This document shows positions 29,925-63,790 of a DNA stretch of 64,000 nucleotides, piece by piece. The notes below the pieces were generated by a model. That model saw only the letters and a program-made list of their open reading frames with translations. It was not told the DNA's origin and ran no database searches. A program made the position numbers and the translations under genes. The number at the start of each line of letters is the position of its first letter. Positions within the stretch are counted from its first letter, which is position 1. The DNA comes from Alkalihalobacillus sp. CinArs1 (GTDB lineage Bacteria > Bacillota > Bacilli > Bacillales > Guptibacillaceae). The stretch covers positions 620,001 to 684,000 of the forward strand of contig NZ_CANDOB010000002.1 of the NCBI RefSeq assembly GCF_947387515.1, in the 5' to 3' direction.

Positions 29925-30485
29925 ATGAAACAGTGGCAGCTATTCCTAGCCTTTTTTAGAGTGGGGATGCTTGGATATGGAGGCGGGCCATCTTCTATTC
30001 CTCTTGTGCATAAAGAAGTGGTCGAAAAGTATAAATGGCTTAGTGATGATGAGTTTGCGGATATTCTAGCTCTAGGTAATTCGCTACCTGGGCCGATCGC
30101 AACGAAGATGGCCGGCTACATCGGTCACCGCGTTGCCGGAATCACCGGAATGATGAATGCCGTTCTGGCAACGATCGTACCAACGATCACGATCATGATC
30201 GTCCTCTTAACCTTTTTGTCCAGTTTCCGTGACAAAGCCTGGGTTGAGGGAATGACGCAGGCGGTTGTTCCTGTTGTCGGTGTGATGCTTGCCGTATTAA
30301 CGTATGACTTCTTTCGTAAAGCACAGGGGAAATTGGGGTGGGTCCTTACGTTAGTGATGACGTTCGTTTCGTTTGTAGTAATTGAAATCGCAGGCGTTCA
30401 CCCTGGACTCGTCATCGGAGTGTTGTTGCTTTATGCGCTTCTTAAGCCTTCAAAGAAGGATGAAGAAGGAGGGGATGAGTCATGA
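29925..30485 (+). CDS. chrA: Chromate transporter, N-terminal-type half (ChrA short chain)
   Basis: 186 residues and about five or six membrane helices. ChrA signatures are GYGGGPSSIPLVHKEVVEKY and LGNSLPGPIATKMAGYIG. Short-chain ChrA proteins work as pairs that insert in opposite orientation; the partner gene overlaps by four bases. ATG 29925 has AAAGGTGG upstream; the longer frame from 29823 lies inside the preceding gene. B. subtilis YwrA/YwrB act as such a pair in chromate resistance. Confidence 0.92.
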   Translation: MKQWQLFLAFFRVGMLGYGGGPSSIPLVHKEVVEKYKWLSDDEFADILALGNSLPGPIATKMAGYIGHRVAGITGMMNAVLATIVPTITIMIVLLTFLSSFRDKAWVEGMTQAVVPVVGVMLAVLTYDFFRKAQGKLGWVLTLVMTFVSFVVIEIAGVHPGLVIGVLLLYALLKPSKKDEEGGDES

Positions 30486-31012
30486 TTTATTGGGAAATCT
30501 TCGTCGCCTTTTTCATACCAGGGATTCTTGGCTATGGTGGAGGCCCTGCTTCGATCCCTCTCGTCGAAAATGAAGTAGTCGGACGCTTCGGTTGGATGAG
30601 TGTGAACGAGTTCAGTGAGATGCTCGCGATGGCGAACGCGTTACCCGGGCCAATCGCGACAAAGATGGCAGGTTATATCGGTTTTCAACAGGGAGGCGTT
30701 CTCGGTGCGTTCGTAGGCGTATTCGCGACGGTTGCTCCGTCGCTCATCTTAATGGTCGTCTTATTGAGCATCCTCTATAAATTTAAGGATTCACCGAAGG
30801 TCAAGCTGATGACAGCGCTCATCAGACCTACGATTGCCATCCTACTCGGCGTTATGGCGTTTCAATTCTTTGCAAGCTCTTACGAAGGAGCGGGCTTCTT
30901 GCAAACGATCTTTCTCATCGCCGCCAGCTTCATACTGATGGAACGGATGAAGGTACACCCTGCCTTCGTAATCGTGGGCTCCCTTGTATATGGCGCCGTG
31001 TTCTTAGGGTGA
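30482..31012 (+). CDS. chrA: Chromate transporter, partner half (ChrA short chain)
   Basis: 176 residues, homologous to the preceding gene: GYGGGPASIPLVENEVVGRF and MANALPGPIATKMAGYIG. Start ATG 30482 overlaps the partner (ATGA). The last codon GGG and the stop TGA lie inside the family B repeat (GGTGACAGG), so the native 3' end appears to have been replaced or capped by that repeat. The function is as for its partner. Confidence 0.9.
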   Translation: MIYWEIFVAFFIPGILGYGGGPASIPLVENEVVGRFGWMSVNEFSEMLAMANALPGPIATKMAGYIGFQQGGVLGAFVGVFATVAPSLILMVVLLSILYKFKDSPKVKLMTALIRPTIAILLGVMAFQFFASSYEGAGFLQTIFLIAASFILMERMKVHPAFVIVGSLVYGAVFLG

Positions 31013-31045
31013 CAGGTACCACCCGGTTTTAGTCAAAGAATGTCG
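31007..31045 (+). repeat. Family B repeat, copy 1
   Basis: Core GGTGACAGGTACCACCC followed by GGTTTTAGTC and TGTCG. The TGA in GGTGA is the stop codon of the second chromate transporter gene. Confidence 0.85.
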
Positions 31046-31048
31046 GAT

Positions 31049-31085: not shown

Positions 31086-31219
31086 TTCTATCGTCTCTTT
31101 TTCAATACTACTCAATTTCTAGTTGAGTTATGTAACGTCTATCACTCAAGCAGAAGTTGATAGGCAGACCTCTATGAAAACGATACGATGAATCTATACT
31201 AATCAAAGAGGTGATTCAT

Positions 31220-32146
31220 ATGTTCGACATGAAGAAGGTAGGAAAGCAAATTGCGTTTTTAAGGAAAGAAAGCAACATAACTCAGATGGCACTAGCAGAC
31301 AGGTTAGGAGTAAGTTACCAAGCGATCAGTAACTGGGAGCGAGGGCTAACGATGCCTGATATCTCAAAACTTCCTGAGCTGGCTAGTGAGTTTGGTGTTA
31401 CAATCGATCACATTTTGCAAGGGGATATTGGAACGGAACTAGTTAAGACTATTGCTGAAAGTGACACCCTCATCATACACTCGGTGGAAAAAGAAGAGTT
31501 GTTGAATGCAGCACCTCTTCTTACGACAGATCAAGCAGAGAGTGTGTATCAGCAGCTAAACAGTGAATTTTCAATAGATGATATCTCTCATATCGCCCCT
31601 TATATTAGCCAGGCGTCTATCGATACGCTCGTAAAGAAGCATATGGAATCTAGTGGTCTTGAAGGGTTGTCTTCTGTTGCGCCTTATTTAAGTGATGAAA
31701 CGATTGATTACATTGCCGTAAAGGGTTTTGAACAGGATGGTCTTCATTCGATCACTTCAATCGTCCCATTTGTAAGCCTGGAGATTCTTGAGGAATTAGC
31801 AGGGAAAGAACTTGAGCATAAAGGGATAAAGACATTATCATCGGTCGCCGCATTTTTAAACAAAGAGTTTATCGACGAGTGTGCTAGAAGGGAATACGAA
31901 TTACGCGGCGTACAACACTTACCGGCACTCGCACCATTTATGAGTGAAGCAGCTTTGAGTGAGCTTGCGAAGAGGAGTGTTGAAATAAATGGAGTGGACT
32001 CCATCACAGCAATCGCCCCATTCTTGAAGAAAGAGCTGTTAAATCGTATTGCGTTAGAAGCTATAGCGAATGGAGGCTTAAAAGAAGTGAATGCGATCAT
32101 GCCATTCATCGACCTAACTGCCATCGAGGAACGAATGAGGAAGTAG
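31220..32146 (+). CDS. XRE-type HTH protein with six 28-residue repeats
   Basis: About 308 residues. Residues 1-70 are a clear XRE/Cro helix-turn-helix (MALADRLGVSYQAISNWERG). From about 140 to the end there are six tandem units of 28 residues, each starting Gly-hydrophobic and reading like GLEGLSSVAPYLSDETIDY or GVQHLPALAPFMSEAALSEL. A Pro-aromatic pair recurs in each unit. The repeats probably form a helical solenoid that senses or binds a partner. ATG 31220 has GAGGTGAT upstream and is preferred to GTG 31211. No operon partner is clear. It ends at a family B repeat. Confidence 0.85.
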   Translation: MFDMKKVGKQIAFLRKESNITQMALADRLGVSYQAISNWERGLTMPDISKLPELASEFGVTIDHILQGDIGTELVKTIAESDTLIIHSVEKEELLNAAPLLTTDQAESVYQQLNSEFSIDDISHIAPYISQASIDTLVKKHMESSGLEGLSSVAPYLSDETIDYIAVKGFEQDGLHSITSIVPFVSLEILEELAGKELEHKGIKTLSSVAAFLNKEFIDECARREYELRGVQHLPALAPFMSEAALSELAKRSVEINGVDSITAIAPFLKKELLNRIALEAIANGGLKEVNAIMPFIDLTAIEERMRK

Positions 32147-32190
32147 TGGTGACAGGTACCACCCGGTTTAGCTCGATTGGTGTCGACTAG
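32147..32190 (+). repeat. Family B repeat, copy 2
   Basis: GGTGACAGGTACCACCC then GGTTTAGCTCGATTGGTGTCGA. It starts directly after the TAG stop of the HTH-repeat gene and precedes that gene's terminator. Confidence 0.85.
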
Positions 32191-33568: not shown

Positions 33569-33820
33569 ATGGATCAAGATAAGCTTCGAGCTGCCTTGAT
33601 TTTAGGTTCATTAGTAGGATTGATTGGCATCATCATGCTTTTCTTTAGTGTGGATTTCGGTACAGAGATAGCTGAGAACTGGTTAGCTGAAGAAGGAGGG
33701 GCAAATATGGAGTATTACCATATTGCTGTCCAGGGCTTTATCAACAACTTTATAGTCGCTGGAGGAATTATGTTTGCTTTTGGACTAATCGTGACATCGG
33801 TTGCTCTGTACTTCAGGTGA
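33569..33820 (+). CDS. Two-helix membrane protein ending in a family B repeat
   Basis: 83 residues with two membrane helices (ILGSLVGLIGIIMLFF and FIVAGGIMFAFGLIVTSVAL) separated by an acidic extracytoplasmic loop. TTAGGAGG lies before the ATG. The last codon AGG and the TGA belong to the family B repeat. Function unknown. Confidence 0.68.
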   Translation: MDQDKLRAALILGSLVGLIGIIMLFFSVDFGTEIAENWLAEEGGANMEYYHIAVQGFINNFIVAGGIMFAFGLIVTSVALYFR

Positions 33821-33857
33821 CAGGTACCACCCGTTTTAGCTCGATTGATGTCGAACC
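33815..33857 (+). repeat. Family B repeat, copy 3
   Basis: AGGTGACAGGTACCACCC then GTTTTAGCTCGATTGATGTCGA. The TGA in AGGTGA is the stop of the preceding membrane protein gene. It is nearly identical to copy 2. Confidence 0.85.
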
Positions 33858-48130: not shown

Positions 48131-48156
48131 GGGAGTTAGGCGCGTGCCTGGCTCCC
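48131..48156 (-). repeat. Family A palindrome, copy 1
   Basis: GGGAGTTAGGCGCGTGCC followed by TGGCTCCC, a near-perfect 26-base palindrome. On the minus strand it encodes the last residues of the TetR gene, QARA, and the TAA stop. Confidence 0.85.
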
Positions 48157-49023
48157 TATAATAATCTTTTCTACTTTCTCAAGGTCGCGAGAAACAGAGG
48201 AGGGAATAGAAGATTGAAGTGTTGTGAGGGCGCTCTTCATCAAGTGATGACGAGGGTCTTTCGACTGCGTGAATTCGTCTCTAATAAATTCAAGAAGCTC
48301 ATTGTATTTAGAATAATCATTTGAAGATTTTAGTTTCTTCTTTATACATAGGATCGCGTCGTTCAGTAACTCTTTCCGAGATTGGTCTTTAAGCTCTGCA
48401 TCAGGAAGCCAGTTTTTGAGATCATCTGGTTCGATCAATTGTTCACCGCTCTCAGTTACTTCTTTCACGATTCTCTCAATTCGGTTGACCGTGTAGTTCA
48501 CGACGAGCTGAATGTTCACGGTAGAACCGTGGGTACGCGCGTAATATTTTGTGTTGTGATGAAGAATGCCTAGGAACATAATCGCACAATCGAGTAAGTA
48601 AGGTTTAGCATCCACGCTGAACAAATCCTCAAAACGATGATAAACCCACTGCAGCATCCTCGCCTGACTTTCCTTGATGTACTCTTTAATCTCTTCATCT
48701 GGTGATAGAACAACTTCTTCAAAAAGCGTGAGAAGGCGGTTCTTTCGATTCGTGTTCATTTGTGTTTCGATCTGCTTCTTAAAAACTTCGATATTTGCAG
48801 AATCTTTTCCAGTTAATAAGCGATCGCGCTTTGCCTCCATTTCATTCAATAACGTTTTGAAGAGTGCGATCAAAAGCTCGTTCTTTGATGAAAAGTAGTT
48901 ATAAAACGTTCCTTTTGAAATACCTGTATAGTCGAGAATATCTTGAATCGACGTTGCGTGAAAGCCTCTGTCGATGAAAAGTTCATGAGATTTAATGATT
49001 ACCTGTTGTTTTCGATCGTTCAC
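48136..49023 (-). CDS. TetR-family regulator with QARA tail
   Basis: 295 residues, longer than the usual 190-220. The N-terminal helix-turn-helix is clear (HELFIDRGFHATSIQDILDY then TGISKGTFYNYFSSKNELL). The C-terminus ends IIIGSQARA, where QARA and the stop are encoded by a family A palindrome. It is divergent from a DHA2-type exporter with 188 bases between, which carries three direct repeats. It probably represses that exporter. Start GTG 49023 with AGGGTGAT upstream. Confidence 0.88.
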   Translation of the reverse strand: MNDRKQQVIIKSHELFIDRGFHATSIQDILDYTGISKGTFYNYFSSKNELLIALFKTLLNEMEAKRDRLLTGKDSANIEVFKKQIETQMNTNRKNRLLTLFEEVVLSPDEEIKEYIKESQARMLQWVYHRFEDLFSVDAKPYLLDCAIMFLGILHHNTKYYARTHGSTVNIQLVVNYTVNRIERIVKEVTESGEQLIEPDDLKNWLPDAELKDQSRKELLNDAILCIKKKLKSSNDYSKYNELLEFIRDEFTQSKDPRHHLMKSALTTLQSSIPSSVSRDLEKVEKIIIGSQARA

Positions 49024-49133
49024 TGTATCATCACCCTGTGTATTAATGTACTACCTGTATAAATTTGATAATACATCATTTTCTGATAAAGAACAAATGC
49101 CTATGTAGAAGGAGATACAAAGGTATTGATTAA

Positions 49134-49198
49134 AATGAACCGATGGTATAAAATAGTCGTAGTGAACTTATAGTATAAAAAATGAACTGGTAGTATAG
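49134..49198 (+). promoter_or_regulatory. Triple direct repeat TGAAC-N5-GTATA upstream of the exporter
   Basis: The 15-base motif TGAAC-N5-GTATA is exact in three places: 49136-49150, 49163-49177 and 49183-49197. The last is just before the ribosome site. The arrangement suggests binding sites for the divergent TetR regulator or for another activator. The GTATAA parts also resemble -10 boxes. Confidence 0.65.
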
Positions 49199-49210
49199 GA
49201 GAGGATCAAC

Positions 49211-50698
49211 ATGAATGCAGCAGTTAATGAAACACCTCGTCCACAGTATGGCGTTCTTGCTGTACTCATCGTCGGAGCGTTCATTGCATTTTTAAATAAT
49301 ACACTTTTGAATATCGCGCTTCCGTCCATTATGGCGGATTTACAAATCGGTACAGCTACCGTTCAGTGGCTGACGACTGGATTTATGCTCGTGAATGGAA
49401 TCCTGATTCCTGCCACAGCTTTTTTAATTGAAAAATTTTCTGTACGACGCTTGTTTCTAGTAGCGATGGGATTGTTCTCAATCGGAACGATTATTGCTGG
49501 GATGGCAGATGTATTTCCTGTTCTGTTAGGAGGTAGAATGCTGCAAGCGTCAGGATCAGCAATCATGATGCCGCTACTGATGAACGTAATGCTCGTTAGC
49601 TTTCCGATCGAAAAGCGCGGCGCAGCGATGGGGGTTTTCGGCTTAATCTTGATGGCAGCACCAGCAATCGGCCCAACCCTATCAGGGTGGATCATCGAAC
49701 ATTACGACTGGAGAATGCTGTTTCACTTCGTCACTCCGATCGCAATCAGTGTGTTACTGCTAGGTTTCTTCTTATTAAAGGATAAAAAAGAGAAAGTAAC
49801 GTTAAAGCTCGATCTTCTGTCACTCGTTCTATCGAGTGCAGGTTTCGGAGGCATCCTTTATGGATTCAGTTCTGCAGGCAGCAAAGGGTGGGAAAGCCCG
49901 CACGTGACGGTAACACTTGCAGTAGGCGTCATTTCACTCGTTACCTTTATCGTCAGACAGTCGAAACTAGAACGACCGATGCTGAACTTTACAATTTTTA
50001 AATATCCAATGTTCGCCTTATCGTCTTCGATTACGATGGTGATCAATATGGCACTGTTTTCCGGCATGCTGCTATTGCCGATTTATGTTCAGACCATTCG
50101 TGGGATCTCGCCGTTTGATGCTGGACTCATGATGTTACCAGGTGCGCTCGTGATGGCACTCATGTCACCGATAACCGGTAAACTTTTTGATAAATACGGT
50201 GGTCGCATCCTGGCGATGACCGGTCTAACGATTACGGTAGCGACTACTTACTTATTTAGCACGCTATCGTTCGAAACGACCTACACGTATTTAATGATTC
50301 TTCATGCCGTACGAATGTTTGGAATGTCGATGGTGATGATGCCTGTCTCAACGAATGGGCTGAATCAGCTGCCAGCGAAGTTCTATCCGCACGGCACAGC
50401 GATGAACAACACGTTGAATCAGGTTTCTGGTGCGATCGGTACGGCACTGCTCGTTACGGTGATGTCGACTCGAACCGAATCAACAGCTTCTGAGCTAGCT
50501 GTTTCGGGAGTGAGTGAGCAGCAGATCATGATGAAAGCGATGCTTGAAGGCATTAACTTTGCTTTCTTCGTCGCAACATTTATAGCGGGTGTCGCACTGC
50601 TGCTAGCATTCTTCATTAGGAGACCAGGAAGAGTCGAAGAGCAATCAGACAAACAATCAGACGAAACGATCATCGTAAGGGGTCAGGCGCGTGCCTGA
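49211..50698 (+). CDS. DHA2-family MFS multidrug exporter with QARA tail
   Basis: 495 residues with 14 predicted membrane helices. The EmrB/QacA family signs are LNNTLLNIALPSIMADL in the first helix, ATVQWLTTGFMLVNGILIPAT and GRMLQASGSAIMMPLLM. It probably exports drugs or hydrophobic compounds using the proton gradient. The last residues RGQARA and TGA lie inside a family A palindrome. The divergent TetR gene and triple repeats upstream suggest ligand-inducible control. TATAGGAGAGG precedes ATG. Confidence 0.92.
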   Translation: MNAAVNETPRPQYGVLAVLIVGAFIAFLNNTLLNIALPSIMADLQIGTATVQWLTTGFMLVNGILIPATAFLIEKFSVRRLFLVAMGLFSIGTIIAGMADVFPVLLGGRMLQASGSAIMMPLLMNVMLVSFPIEKRGAAMGVFGLILMAAPAIGPTLSGWIIEHYDWRMLFHFVTPIAISVLLLGFFLLKDKKEKVTLKLDLLSLVLSSAGFGGILYGFSSAGSKGWESPHVTVTLAVGVISLVTFIVRQSKLERPMLNFTIFKYPMFALSSSITMVINMALFSGMLLLPIYVQTIRGISPFDAGLMMLPGALVMALMSPITGKLFDKYGGRILAMTGLTITVATTYLFSTLSFETTYTYLMILHAVRMFGMSMVMMPVSTNGLNQLPAKFYPHGTAMNNTLNQVSGAIGTALLVTVMSTRTESTASELAVSGVSEQQIMMKAMLEGINFAFFVATFIAGVALLLAFFIRRPGRVEEQSDKQSDETIIVRGQARA

Positions 50699-50704
50699 TC
50701 CTTT
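50677..50704 (+). repeat. Family A palindrome, copy 2
   Basis: GGGTCAGGCGCGTGCCTGATC with A and T flanks. It supplies the last five residues (GQARA) and the TGA of the exporter gene, and because a T-rich tail follows it can also act as the terminator. Confidence 0.88.
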
Positions 50705-50732
50705 CTTTATTTTCTATTGCTGTTTCTCACAC

Positions 50733-50778
50733 ATTACTGTATGATACATAGTATAGATAGTGTACGACATACAGTAAT
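50733..50778 (+). promoter_or_regulatory. PadR-type operator region
   Basis: Inverted repeat ATTACTGTATG (50733-50743) and CATACAGTAAT (50768-50778) with a central TATAGAT that could be a -10 box. It lies before the PadR gene and is probably its own operator. Confidence 0.65.
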
Positions 50779-50794
50779 AGAAAGCAGTGATGGT

Positions 50795-51139
50795 ATGACG
50801 TTGTTGAATTCTTTAGTAACCGAGCTTAGAAGGGGGACATTAACCCTTGCTGTGCTCAGTCAGTTGAGATCTCCGCAGTATGGGTATTCACTCGTTCAGT
50901 CTCTTGAAAAGTCAGGGGTCACGATCGAACAAAGCACGTTATATCCACTTCTACGAAGGCTAGAAAAGCAAGAGCTTGTCACGAGCAGTTGGGATACGAC
51001 GGAGAAGAGACCAAGAAAGTATTATGTACTGAGTGAATTTGGAACAGAAATTTATGGACAATTAAAGGAAGAGTGGGAGAAGACTTCTGCGGAACTTCAC
51101 TCCCTTCTGAAAGGAGACGAATCGCGTGAAGTTGATTGA
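50795..51139 (+). CDS. PadR-family transcriptional regulator
   Basis: About 114 residues. The winged helix has the PadR signature: LRRGTLTLAVLSQL, YGYSLVQSLEKSG, QSTLYPLLRRLEKQ and RKYYVLSEFG. ATG 50795 is taken because the longer frame from 50717 runs through the operator region. The next gene overlaps it by 14 bases and encodes an HAAS-type membrane protein, a common PadR partner. It probably senses a compound linked to that protein and autoregulates via the upstream inverted repeat. Confidence 0.88.
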   Translation: MTLLNSLVTELRRGTLTLAVLSQLRSPQYGYSLVQSLEKSGVTIEQSTLYPLLRRLEKQELVTSSWDTTEKRPRKYYVLSEFGTEIYGQLKEEWEKTSAELHSLLKGDESREVD

Positions 51140-52085
51140 AGCGTATATTGGAGAAGTGACGAGAAGGCTGCCAGAAAAGGAGCGGGAAGATATCGCCCTA
51201 GAACTAAGGTCAACGATCTATGATACGCTGCCTGAAGATTACAGTGAAGAAGAGGAGAAGGCTGCATTACGTGAACTTGGAAGTCCGTTTATGTTGGCGA
51301 ACGGTTATAAAAATTGGCCCATGCATCTTATTGGGCCGAAGTATTTTGAGTCGTACGTTTCGCTATTGAAAATTCTTCTGCCAATCGTCCTCCTCATCTC
51401 CTTTCTGTCGTTATTAACCGTGGATTTCATTGAGCATTCCGGAGTCATTTCGGTCATCGAAATCTTCTGGATGGCGATAGGAAATGCGTTCGCTGTCTTC
51501 TTTGATGTTACGCTCCAGGTCCTCTTTTGGGTGACGCTTGGGTTTGTGATTTTCGAAAGAACAGAGCATAAAAAAGAAACGATAAAGAAATGGTCACCTG
51601 ACGACTTGAAAAAATCACCGAGTTATTTAACTGAGAAAGCTGTTAAGAAGATGGAGATCTTTTGGGATCTTTTTTGGATGGCTGTACTTGCGGCACTTTA
51701 TTTCAACGCTTCGAATCTTATGGGTGTGATTCAAGATGGAGAAATGGTAGCACCTCTATTCAATAACGACGTGCTCCTGTCTTATTGGCCGCTTGTCGTG
51801 GCTGCTTTGATCGGTGAGGTTCTCCTCGCAGCGTATAAGCTAGTGGCTGGGGTTTGGACGAAGCGAATGGCGATTCTAAATACGCTTCAACTTGCCTTTT
51901 CGACAACCGTCTTCCTCTTGATCATTTTTAATAACAACATTATTCATTCCAAGATCGCAACTTATTTTCCATTACCGGAAAGTTATCTAGAACGTACTCT
52001 TACCATCACTGCGATTGTGGTGGTTGGGATCAACGCATACGAAGCTTGGAAAGGATTCAAAAGAGGGGGGCAGGCACGTGCCTGA
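51126..52085 (+). CDS. HAAS-domain membrane protein with QARA tail
   Basis: 319 residues. The N-terminal HAAS (formerly DUF1700-like) segment is LIEAYIGEVTRRLPEKERED followed by LRELGSP. Then come about six membrane helices. HAAS proteins are typically encoded next to PadR regulators, as here. The start is GTG 51126 with AAAGGAGA upstream. The protein ends GFKRGGQARA, where the tail and TGA are encoded by a family A palindrome. Function unknown, perhaps envelope stress. Confidence 0.85.
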   Translation: MKLIEAYIGEVTRRLPEKEREDIALELRSTIYDTLPEDYSEEEEKAALRELGSPFMLANGYKNWPMHLIGPKYFESYVSLLKILLPIVLLISFLSLLTVDFIEHSGVISVIEIFWMAIGNAFAVFFDVTLQVLFWVTLGFVIFERTEHKKETIKKWSPDDLKKSPSYLTEKAVKKMEIFWDLFWMAVLAALYFNASNLMGVIQDGEMVAPLFNNDVLLSYWPLVVAALIGEVLLAAYKLVAGVWTKRMAILNTLQLAFSTTVFLLIIFNNNIIHSKIATYFPLPESYLERTLTITAIVVVGINAYEAWKGFKRGGQARA

Positions 52086-52090
52086 CTCCT
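52063..52090 (+). repeat. Family A palindrome, copy 3
   Basis: GAGGGGGGCAGGCACGTGCC followed by TGACTCCT. It supplies GGQARA and the TGA of the HAAS gene, and a CTTTCTGTTTC tail follows. Confidence 0.87.
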
Positions 52091-53978: not shown

Positions 53979-54007
53979 AAAGACAGGCTAGCGCCTGTCT
54001 TTTTTTG
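53979..54007 (+). terminator. Terminator after the excalibur gene (resembles family A)
   Basis: AAAGACAGGC and GCCTGTCTTT flank a CTAGC centre, followed by TTTTTT. The GACAGGC/GCCTGTC arms resemble family A, but it lies after the stop. Confidence 0.88.
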
Positions 54008-54013
54008 TGGGAT

Positions 54014-54045
54014 CCGTCACAGGTACCACCCGTTTTTTGTCGAAG
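54014..54045 (+). repeat. Family B repeat, copy 4
   Basis: CGTCACAGGTACCACCC then GTTTTTTGTCGAA. It lies between genes and supplies no stop codon. It is the most diverged copy. Confidence 0.75.
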
Positions 54046-54093
54046 GGAATGTGGAATAAGAAAGAGAAATGTTAGTTATAGGAGCGTGAAGGT

Positions 54094-63750: not shown

Positions 63751-63790
63751 TCGACAGCCTTCGAGCTAATCCGGGTGGTACCTGTCACCG
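63751..63790 (-). repeat. Family B repeat, copy 5
   Basis: On the minus strand CGGTGACAGGTACCACCC then GGATTAGCTCGAAGGCTGTCGA. The TGA in CGGTGA is the stop of the partial gene at the window edge. Confidence 0.85.

Follow-up and report, generated by a model that had tools for sequence, protein, structure and literature searches.

Three genes ending inside one palindrome

The window analysed here is the whole 64-kb stretch of Alkalihalobacillus sp. CinArs1 (contig NZ_CANDOB010000002.1, positions 620,001 to 684,000 of the forward strand). In this window, three unrelated genes, encoding a TetR-family regulator, an MFS exporter and a HAAS-domain membrane protein, terminate within copies of the same short palindrome, hereafter called the type-A repeat. 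The genes and the repeats that end them are listed below.

48131-48156, minus strand: type-A palindrome, degenerate copy; gives QARA and the TAA stop of the TetR gene
48136-49023, minus strand: TetR-family regulator, ending ...IIGSQARA; orthologues end otherwise and are, by eye, longer by about 10 residues at the C-terminus
49211-50698, plus strand: MFS (DHA2-type) exporter, ending ...IIVRGQARA; many orthologues finish ...KLAEN or similar
50677-50704, plus strand: type-A palindrome; gives QARA and the TGA stop of the MFS gene; terminator-like hairpin of 12 pairs
51126-52085, plus strand: HAAS-domain membrane protein, ending ...KGFKRGGQARA; orthologues end, for example, ...KGFWKAKL
52063-52090, plus strand: type-A palindrome; gives QARA and the TGA stop of the HAAS gene

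The ends of the open reading frames (ORFs) confirmed what a preliminary description of this DNA had noticed, namely that all three proteins finish in QARA within one palindrome. The last codons are CAG GCG CGT GCC TGA for the exporter, CAG GCA CGT GCC TGA for the HAAS protein and CAG GCA CGC GCC TAA for the regulator. The exporter and HAAS genes end inside the exact 14-base core with TGA, whereas the TetR copy, to correct the first description, is one base off this core and carries TAA; over 19 nucleotides, it shares 89% and 79% identity with the two other copies. Allowing up to two mismatches, the palindrome occurs four times in the window, whereas shuffled sequences averaged 0.23 matches and none of 100 reached four; the fourth match, at 53984, is separate from the three QARA copies. 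The exact core is found three times in the whole genome (0 for the reversed-pattern control), and its third copy, outside the window, likewise terminates an ORF in QARA (77 amino acids with the start used). These results support the proposal that one short repeat is the source of both the C-terminus and the stop codon of unrelated proteins.

A repeat family nearly confined to one genus

The type-A family has the general form GGGGTCAGG-NNCGNN-CCTGACCCC. Its strict pattern, GTCAGGNNCGNNCCTGAC, was found in 323 copies distributed over 14 of 14 genomes of the genus, with none for the reversed control. Elsewhere in the order it matched once in 383 genomes, and this lone match may be due to chance because the reversed control matches twice there. 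The family is thus nearly confined to one genus, marine and Bacillus-like, which is probably Pseudalkalibacillus/Alkalihalobacillus. Being perfectly or almost perfectly palindromic, the core has no orientation and no single tagged end.

We read 176 type-A copies, comprising 174 strict ones and the two window copies that depart from the strict pattern, which grouped by single linkage into approximately 60 position clusters. One match in the window's genome (C2:232690), lying inside a coding frame and probably fortuitous, was excluded from the count for that genome.

Long genes enter the palindrome in a single frame

The stop-bearing frame of type A reads CAG G[C/T]N CGN [G/A]CC TGA and encodes the cap Q-[A/V]-R-[A/T]. 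Owing to the palindromy, a stop codon is present in exactly one frame, whichever strand is read. Among the copies examined, 23 in 14 clusters supply their own stop to an ORF of at least 100 amino acids, and 83 different copies, spread over 30 clusters, lie up to about 60 nucleotides after the stop of such an ORF. Copies that end or closely follow an ORF of this length amount to 104 of the 176, a raw share taken without a random-position control; nothing in it contradicts the enrichment at gene ends that had been anticipated.

For ORFs of at least 150 amino acids, 19 copies in 12 clusters end the gene at the palindrome stop, 74 copies in 25 clusters follow a stop, and none is run through. All 12 of these clusters use the stop frame ((1/3)^12 = 1.9e-6). 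When upstream codons alone were counted, with no limit on the downstream end of the ORF, reading frames that enter the palindrome after 100 or more open codons numbered 23 in the stop frame and 0 and 0 in the two others. Long genes thus end in the palindrome only in the stop frame (23/23), which bears out the earlier idea that the element caps the genes it joins in the right frame. Two run-through ORFs (101 and 105 amino acids), apparently antisense to larger genes, were set aside as spurious, and an 80-amino-acid ORF opposite a capped gene of 131 amino acids was not counted as a host.

The copies situated after a stop showed no frame preference (remainders 12/8/5, p 0.23) and, with one copy taken per cluster, 24 of 30 distances were 4-27 nucleotides past a stop. 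Since these copies are frame-neutral and fusions with long genes occur in one frame only, placement of the repeat looks frame-blind and its fusion frame-strict.

A transposase-like gene accompanies the repeat

The type-A palindrome adjoins a gene of about 205 codons resembling REP-associated tyrosine transposases (RAYT; REP, repetitive extragenic palindrome). Its product scores over the cut-off for PF01797 and reaches 61.4 bits with NF047646 (REP_Tyr_transpos), below the cut-off of 80. The NHVH and YIHLNP motifs, which we take to be the HUH motif and the catalytic tyrosine of a Y1 (IS200-like) transposase, are present in 11 of 11 sequences. A strict palindrome lies within 350 nucleotides upstream of the gene in 10 of 11 loci, and the eleventh has a one-mismatch copy. 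The inner six bases of the palindrome beside the gene vary between species, and in some loci further copies are found downstream at a greater distance. The element, first described as mobile-like, thus belongs to a RAYT-linked repeat family.

The type-A RAYT gene, scored as present at 80% identity or more over 60 amino acids, occurs in 12 of the 14 genomes and is absent from that of the window (G000) and from G006. Genomes with the gene contain 16-34 type-A copies, whereas the two that lack it contain 3 and 4 (one-sided Mann-Whitney p 0.018), an association suggesting that repeat number may depend on the RAYT gene. G000 retains a broken remnant of the gene beside a dprA-like gene (TIGR00732, 183.9 bits against a cut-off of 191.15), with a decayed palindrome alongside. 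A gene resembling the REP-associated transposase that the preliminary description proposed to look for is present in 12 genomes of the genus, and the window's own genome keeps only a dead type-A relic.

A type-A RAYT gene or its relic is located directly upstream of a dprA-like gene, DprA being a DNA-uptake protein, in five loci (L044, L052, L117, L121 and L286), and this shared neighbour suggests vertical inheritance of the RAYT-like gene. Further RAYT-like types (L088 at G000:C1:1353754, L108, L111 and L119) are adjoined by other short inverted repeats, GGGACAATGTACCTGTCCC and GGGAGAACCGTCCC or a close form.

Arrangement and variation of the copies

Doublets of type-A copies spaced by 143-145 nucleotides were seen in six distinct cases among the copies read (L107, L110, L121, L142 and L054), three of them upstream of the RAYT-like gene. 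Between the members of doublets stands a second hairpin, AAGTGTCC...GGACACTT, and a GTCC..GGAC hairpin lies within 70 nucleotides of 55 of 174 type-A copies, versus 0.85 in shuffles. On the G009 chromosome, about 31 of 34 copies are concentrated at 1.33-1.44, 3.79-3.85 and 4.13-4.19 Mb, one of these regions being at the RAYT gene.

The outer arms of the palindrome at one site upstream of the type-A RAYT gene (L110 2571, G009) differ in sequence from those of the orthologous site in G010 (flank identity, 98 and 92%), complementarity being kept within each; to judge from these sequences, both arms seem to have been rewritten together. Counterpart loci without a strict palindrome numbered 109 and those with one 330. 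Of the 109, most of those listed showed a decayed palindrome or altered arms, and in the few with no palindrome at all the flanks matched poorly.

Host proteins and the ends of their orthologues

The proteins capped by type A are unrelated. In addition to the three window products, they include rubrerythrin-like, LuxR-type, polyketide-cyclase-like, lysylphosphatidylglycerol-synthase-like and deoxyribosyltransferase-like proteins, a CbiZ/ABC fusion, a nucleoside hydrolase, a SIS-domain protein (N-acetylmuramic acid 6-phosphate etherase) and GalE. Pfam matches over the cut-off were obtained for 8 of 10 additional capped hosts, two having no match, and the capped hosts are real proteins. Depending on the host, the last residue of the cap is A, T or S and the second A or V.

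A tail of the type Q[AV]R[ATS] was found in 1 of 80 MFS loci and in 1 of 62 TetR loci (at least 35% identity, weaker matches being omitted). In both families the locus concerned is L178 (A. algicola, G001), which carries the repeat. None of the 79 other exporter loci and none of the 61 other regulator loci has a QARA-like end, so orthologues offered no sign that this tail is native.

GalE ends in QVRT in 12 of 13 genus orthologues, and in QVHT within a changed hairpin in the thirteenth; the spacer before its cap varies in length by whole codons. In G000, GalE is represented solely by a 45% paralogue. At the end of the G001 GalE gene (L284) stands the hairpin AAGCTTGATCAGGTACATACCTGATCAAGCTT with a T run behind it, the stop lying within a terminator-like stem with other arms. 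Pairwise counts of amino-acid-changing versus wobble differences in the cap (1 versus 49 in 51 capped pairs; 57 versus 76 in 117 free pairs) were discarded as unreliable, being dominated by GalE and non-independent.

A second family lends stop codons less strictly

The first description understated the window, which holds a second repeat family (type B) that also lends TGA to genes. Type B has the form GTGACAGG[C/T]ACC[A/G]C[C/T]CG... and is found upstream of another type of RAYT-like gene. Its members in the window are the following.

31008-31046, plus strand: type-B repeat (GGTGACAGGTACCACCCG...); TGA is the stop of ORF 30482-31012 (176 amino acids)
32148-32186, plus strand: type-B repeat, 1 base past the TAG stop of ORF 31211-32146 (311 amino acids)
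33816-33854, plus strand: type-B repeat; TGA is the stop of ORF 33569-33820 (83 amino acids)
54015-54053, plus strand: type-B repeat, intergenic, without TGA (GTCACAGG)
63772-63788, minus strand: type-B repeat; TGA is the stop of a 443-amino-acid ORF extending beyond the window

We read 111 distinct type-B copies, a subset of all the places found. GTGA stands at the left of the element in 99 of them, and in 27 its TGA ends an ORF of 100 or more amino acids on the same strand; by eye, these 27 belong to about 16 families. A further 23 follow a same-strand stop by 3-68 nucleotides, and for 60 no ORF of this kind lies nearby. Read on the opposite strand, the element offers no stop of its own, and there 36 copies come after a stop. 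The type-B hosts have no C-terminal peptide in common. In G000, the TGA serves as gene stop for 7 of 12 type-B copies, including the one ending the 83-amino-acid ORF (L295 and L296, being one place, were counted once), and three of these seven lie in the window (31008, 33816 and 63772).

Proposed mechanism and its weak points

We consider it probable that a RAYT system of the genus has these palindromes as its REP-like repeats, and that in-frame gene fusions have been retained while wrong-frame ones have been purged. The type-A palindromes are predicted to form strong hairpins (-16 to -21.6 kcal/mol), which would end the transcript just past the TGA of the palindrome. A gene entering the palindrome in either of the other two frames would then have an mRNA that runs out before any stop codon. 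Fusions of this kind would be eliminated, leaving the in-frame ones; after loss of the native stop, the repeat would be locked in as the gene end and could outlive the transposase. The second pair of RAYT-like gene and repeat, present in the same genomes, lends genes the TGA near the left end of the repeat in a less strict manner. In Escherichia coli, a terminator is repressed by a ribosome standing at a stop codon a few bases before it, according to PMC4824070. RNA polymerase is described as outrunning ribosomes in Bacillus subtilis (PMC13323073), so that an overlap of stop codon and terminator could be workable there.

Several observations weigh against this mechanism. The role of the stem as a transcription terminator, assumed from the start, found no support in our promoter and terminator scan, as terminator-like matches in the region, which include two of the three palindromes, were at shuffle level (3 versus 3.1), leaving predicted hairpins as the source from which such activity is inferred. 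The frame rule becomes weaker for frames open for at least 60 codons into the palindrome (29 for the stop frame versus 5 and 0 for the other two), and 53 rows of run-through ORFs of 60-105 amino acids were recorded, mostly with fewer than 60 codons before the palindrome; most of these were taken as spurious by judgement. The type-A sample is uneven: the copies listed are those of G001, G002, G003 and G009 with most of G010, and in the remaining genomes mainly the neighbourhoods of CACGTG-like copies were read. Among the loci compared, no clean pair of empty and filled sites was found and insertion itself was not seen; between two close species, one site was labelled empty, yet no clean insertion was apparent. 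The GTAG/GGAG foot is not conserved, the outer G run being preceded by GTA in 12 and by GGA in 28 of 348 arm ends. Constraint on the cap, estimated by minimum events, was not significant (1 amino-acid-changing to 6 wobble events in capped copies versus 16 to 28 in free ones, p 0.40). Capped copies make up 5 of 8 in G000 versus 23 of 172 elsewhere, a difference that would point to preferential survival of capped copies but is significant when the three genes that prompted this work are included (p 0.0026) and not when they are left out (p 0.15). Finally, type-B elements are sometimes run through by ORFs of at least 100 amino acids, once among the 111 copies on the same strand, with TTCA replacing GTGA, and twice on the opposite strand, near the ends of ORFs of 261 and 174 amino acids (L327 at G000:C1:1290003 and L331 in G002), which may be in-frame extensions that take no stop from the element. 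A strict filter would forbid the latter two if the element ends transcripts that way. As a whole, the earlier interpretation is retained for capping by the repeat, the RAYT link and the right-frame rule, and abandoned for the stability tag; the terminator role is kept as a supposition.

Alternative explanations

A first alternative, possible though in our view doubtful, is that the frame follows from the choice of target, the RAYT-like enzyme joining its repeat to a short target that holds the host's own stop. The GTGA at the left end of most type-B copies, whose TGA is the host stop in 27 cases, would fit such a target. The arm left of GTGA is kept in 13 of 27 capped versus 56 of 72 other type-B copies (p 0.007), so that the capped ones look as if joined at GTGA, and relatives of the IS200/IS605 group are described as picking their sites via a guide tetranucleotide (PMC8266576). 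However, the type-B GTGA can pair within the repeat stem rather than standing at its foot. The type-A stop is buried well within the palindrome and the left arm is present in the capped copies shown, so that this stop could hardly be a pre-existing target; moreover, the capped ends of the MFS, TetR and HAAS proteins are changed and not native.

Equally tentative is a neutral scenario in which free terminator-like repeats drift beside genes and native stops mutate away, leaving a useless cap, with the frame gap resulting from small numbers and ORF calling. It would account for the short distances past a stop without frame preference (24 of 30), for the non-significant substitution test and for the type-B run-throughs, and the out-of-frame TAG or TGA seen by eye just before the cap in several hosts may be relics of such a process. 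That all 12 clusters and all 23 copies use one frame, and that GalE is capped in nearly all its genus orthologues, is however hard to explain without any selection.

A useful role of the QARA or QVRT end as a tag, such as a protease signal or membrane anchor, is very improbable: a similar four-residue end does occur on many proteins, but these are functionally unrelated, and the stability signal suggested earlier is rejected because the second and last residues of the cap vary, type B moreover giving stops without any common peptide. The convergence of ordinary terminators by chance, with no mobile element, would agree with the gene-end position and the strong predicted hairpins, but is highly unlikely given that the 14 genomes of one genus contain 323 copies and 383 others in the order 1 match, that copy number tracks the RAYT-like gene and that the doublets are regularly spaced.

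Comparison with known repeats

Intrinsic terminators lie close to stop codons in Bacillus; type A resembles them in having a hairpin at the stop and differs in that its hairpin is a repeat with its own stop and coding residues. The closest described systems are the GTAG REPs, or REPtrons, which share with type A the many short palindromes, the adjacent gene for a Y1 HUH transposase-like protein and the position at gene 3' ends (PMC3733652, PMC6006769, PMC8266576). Their termini often provide a TAG stop to adjacent ORFs, as stated in PMC3733652. Type A has no conserved GTAG foot; its stop lies within a perfect palindrome and serves both strands, and it has a constant C-terminal cap and a frame rule. 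The TIRYT/TIRtron systems likewise combine a RAYT-like gene with non-GTAG inverted repeats, and GGGGTCAG fits their GGGGWSAS, but the terminal inverted repeats described there flank the transposase gene, whereas type A is a self-complementary palindrome dispersed at gene ends (PMC3733652). The Rickettsia palindromic elements are also palindromic repeats that become in-frame parts of proteins; they are described as inserted in frame within ORFs, whereas type A terminates the ORF (PMC3733652). The type-A doublets, with their near-constant spacing, recall REPINs and BIMEs (PMC6006769). A REPIN is one unit made of two REPs in inverted order; most type-A copies read are single and, as the palindrome has no orientation, direct and inverted pairs of it would look alike.

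Within the titles and abstract openings covered by our literature search, no earlier report was found of a perfectly palindromic repeat that combines an internal stop, a constant Q[A/V]R[A/T] cap and a frame rule, or of two such stop-lending families in one Bacillus-like genus. In relation to these sources, REPs that give stop codons are already published (PMC3733652); the internal stop, the constant Q[A/V]R[A/T] cap and the frame rule are new.

Significance

The type-A repeats show concretely, and many times over within one genus, how mobile DNA can rewrite the C-termini of proteins, and they do so under a clear frame rule. They also provide a testable idea, namely that the end of transcription at a stop codon acts as a selective filter on gene fusions. 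For annotators, they carry the warning that identical C-termini on unrelated proteins may stem from a repeat and not from homology. More speculatively, and at a lower level of confidence than the mechanism proposed for type A, the two RAYT/repeat systems might be portable gene-ending modules that bring a stop and a probable transcription end, wrong-frame entry yielding a non-stop mRNA, so that mobile DNA and the barrier of ribosome rescue would together decide which new C-termini arise. If this is true, about 30 gene families (14 type-A clusters and, by eye, about 16 type-B families) would have gained new C-termini, and these caps could persist after the death of the transposase.

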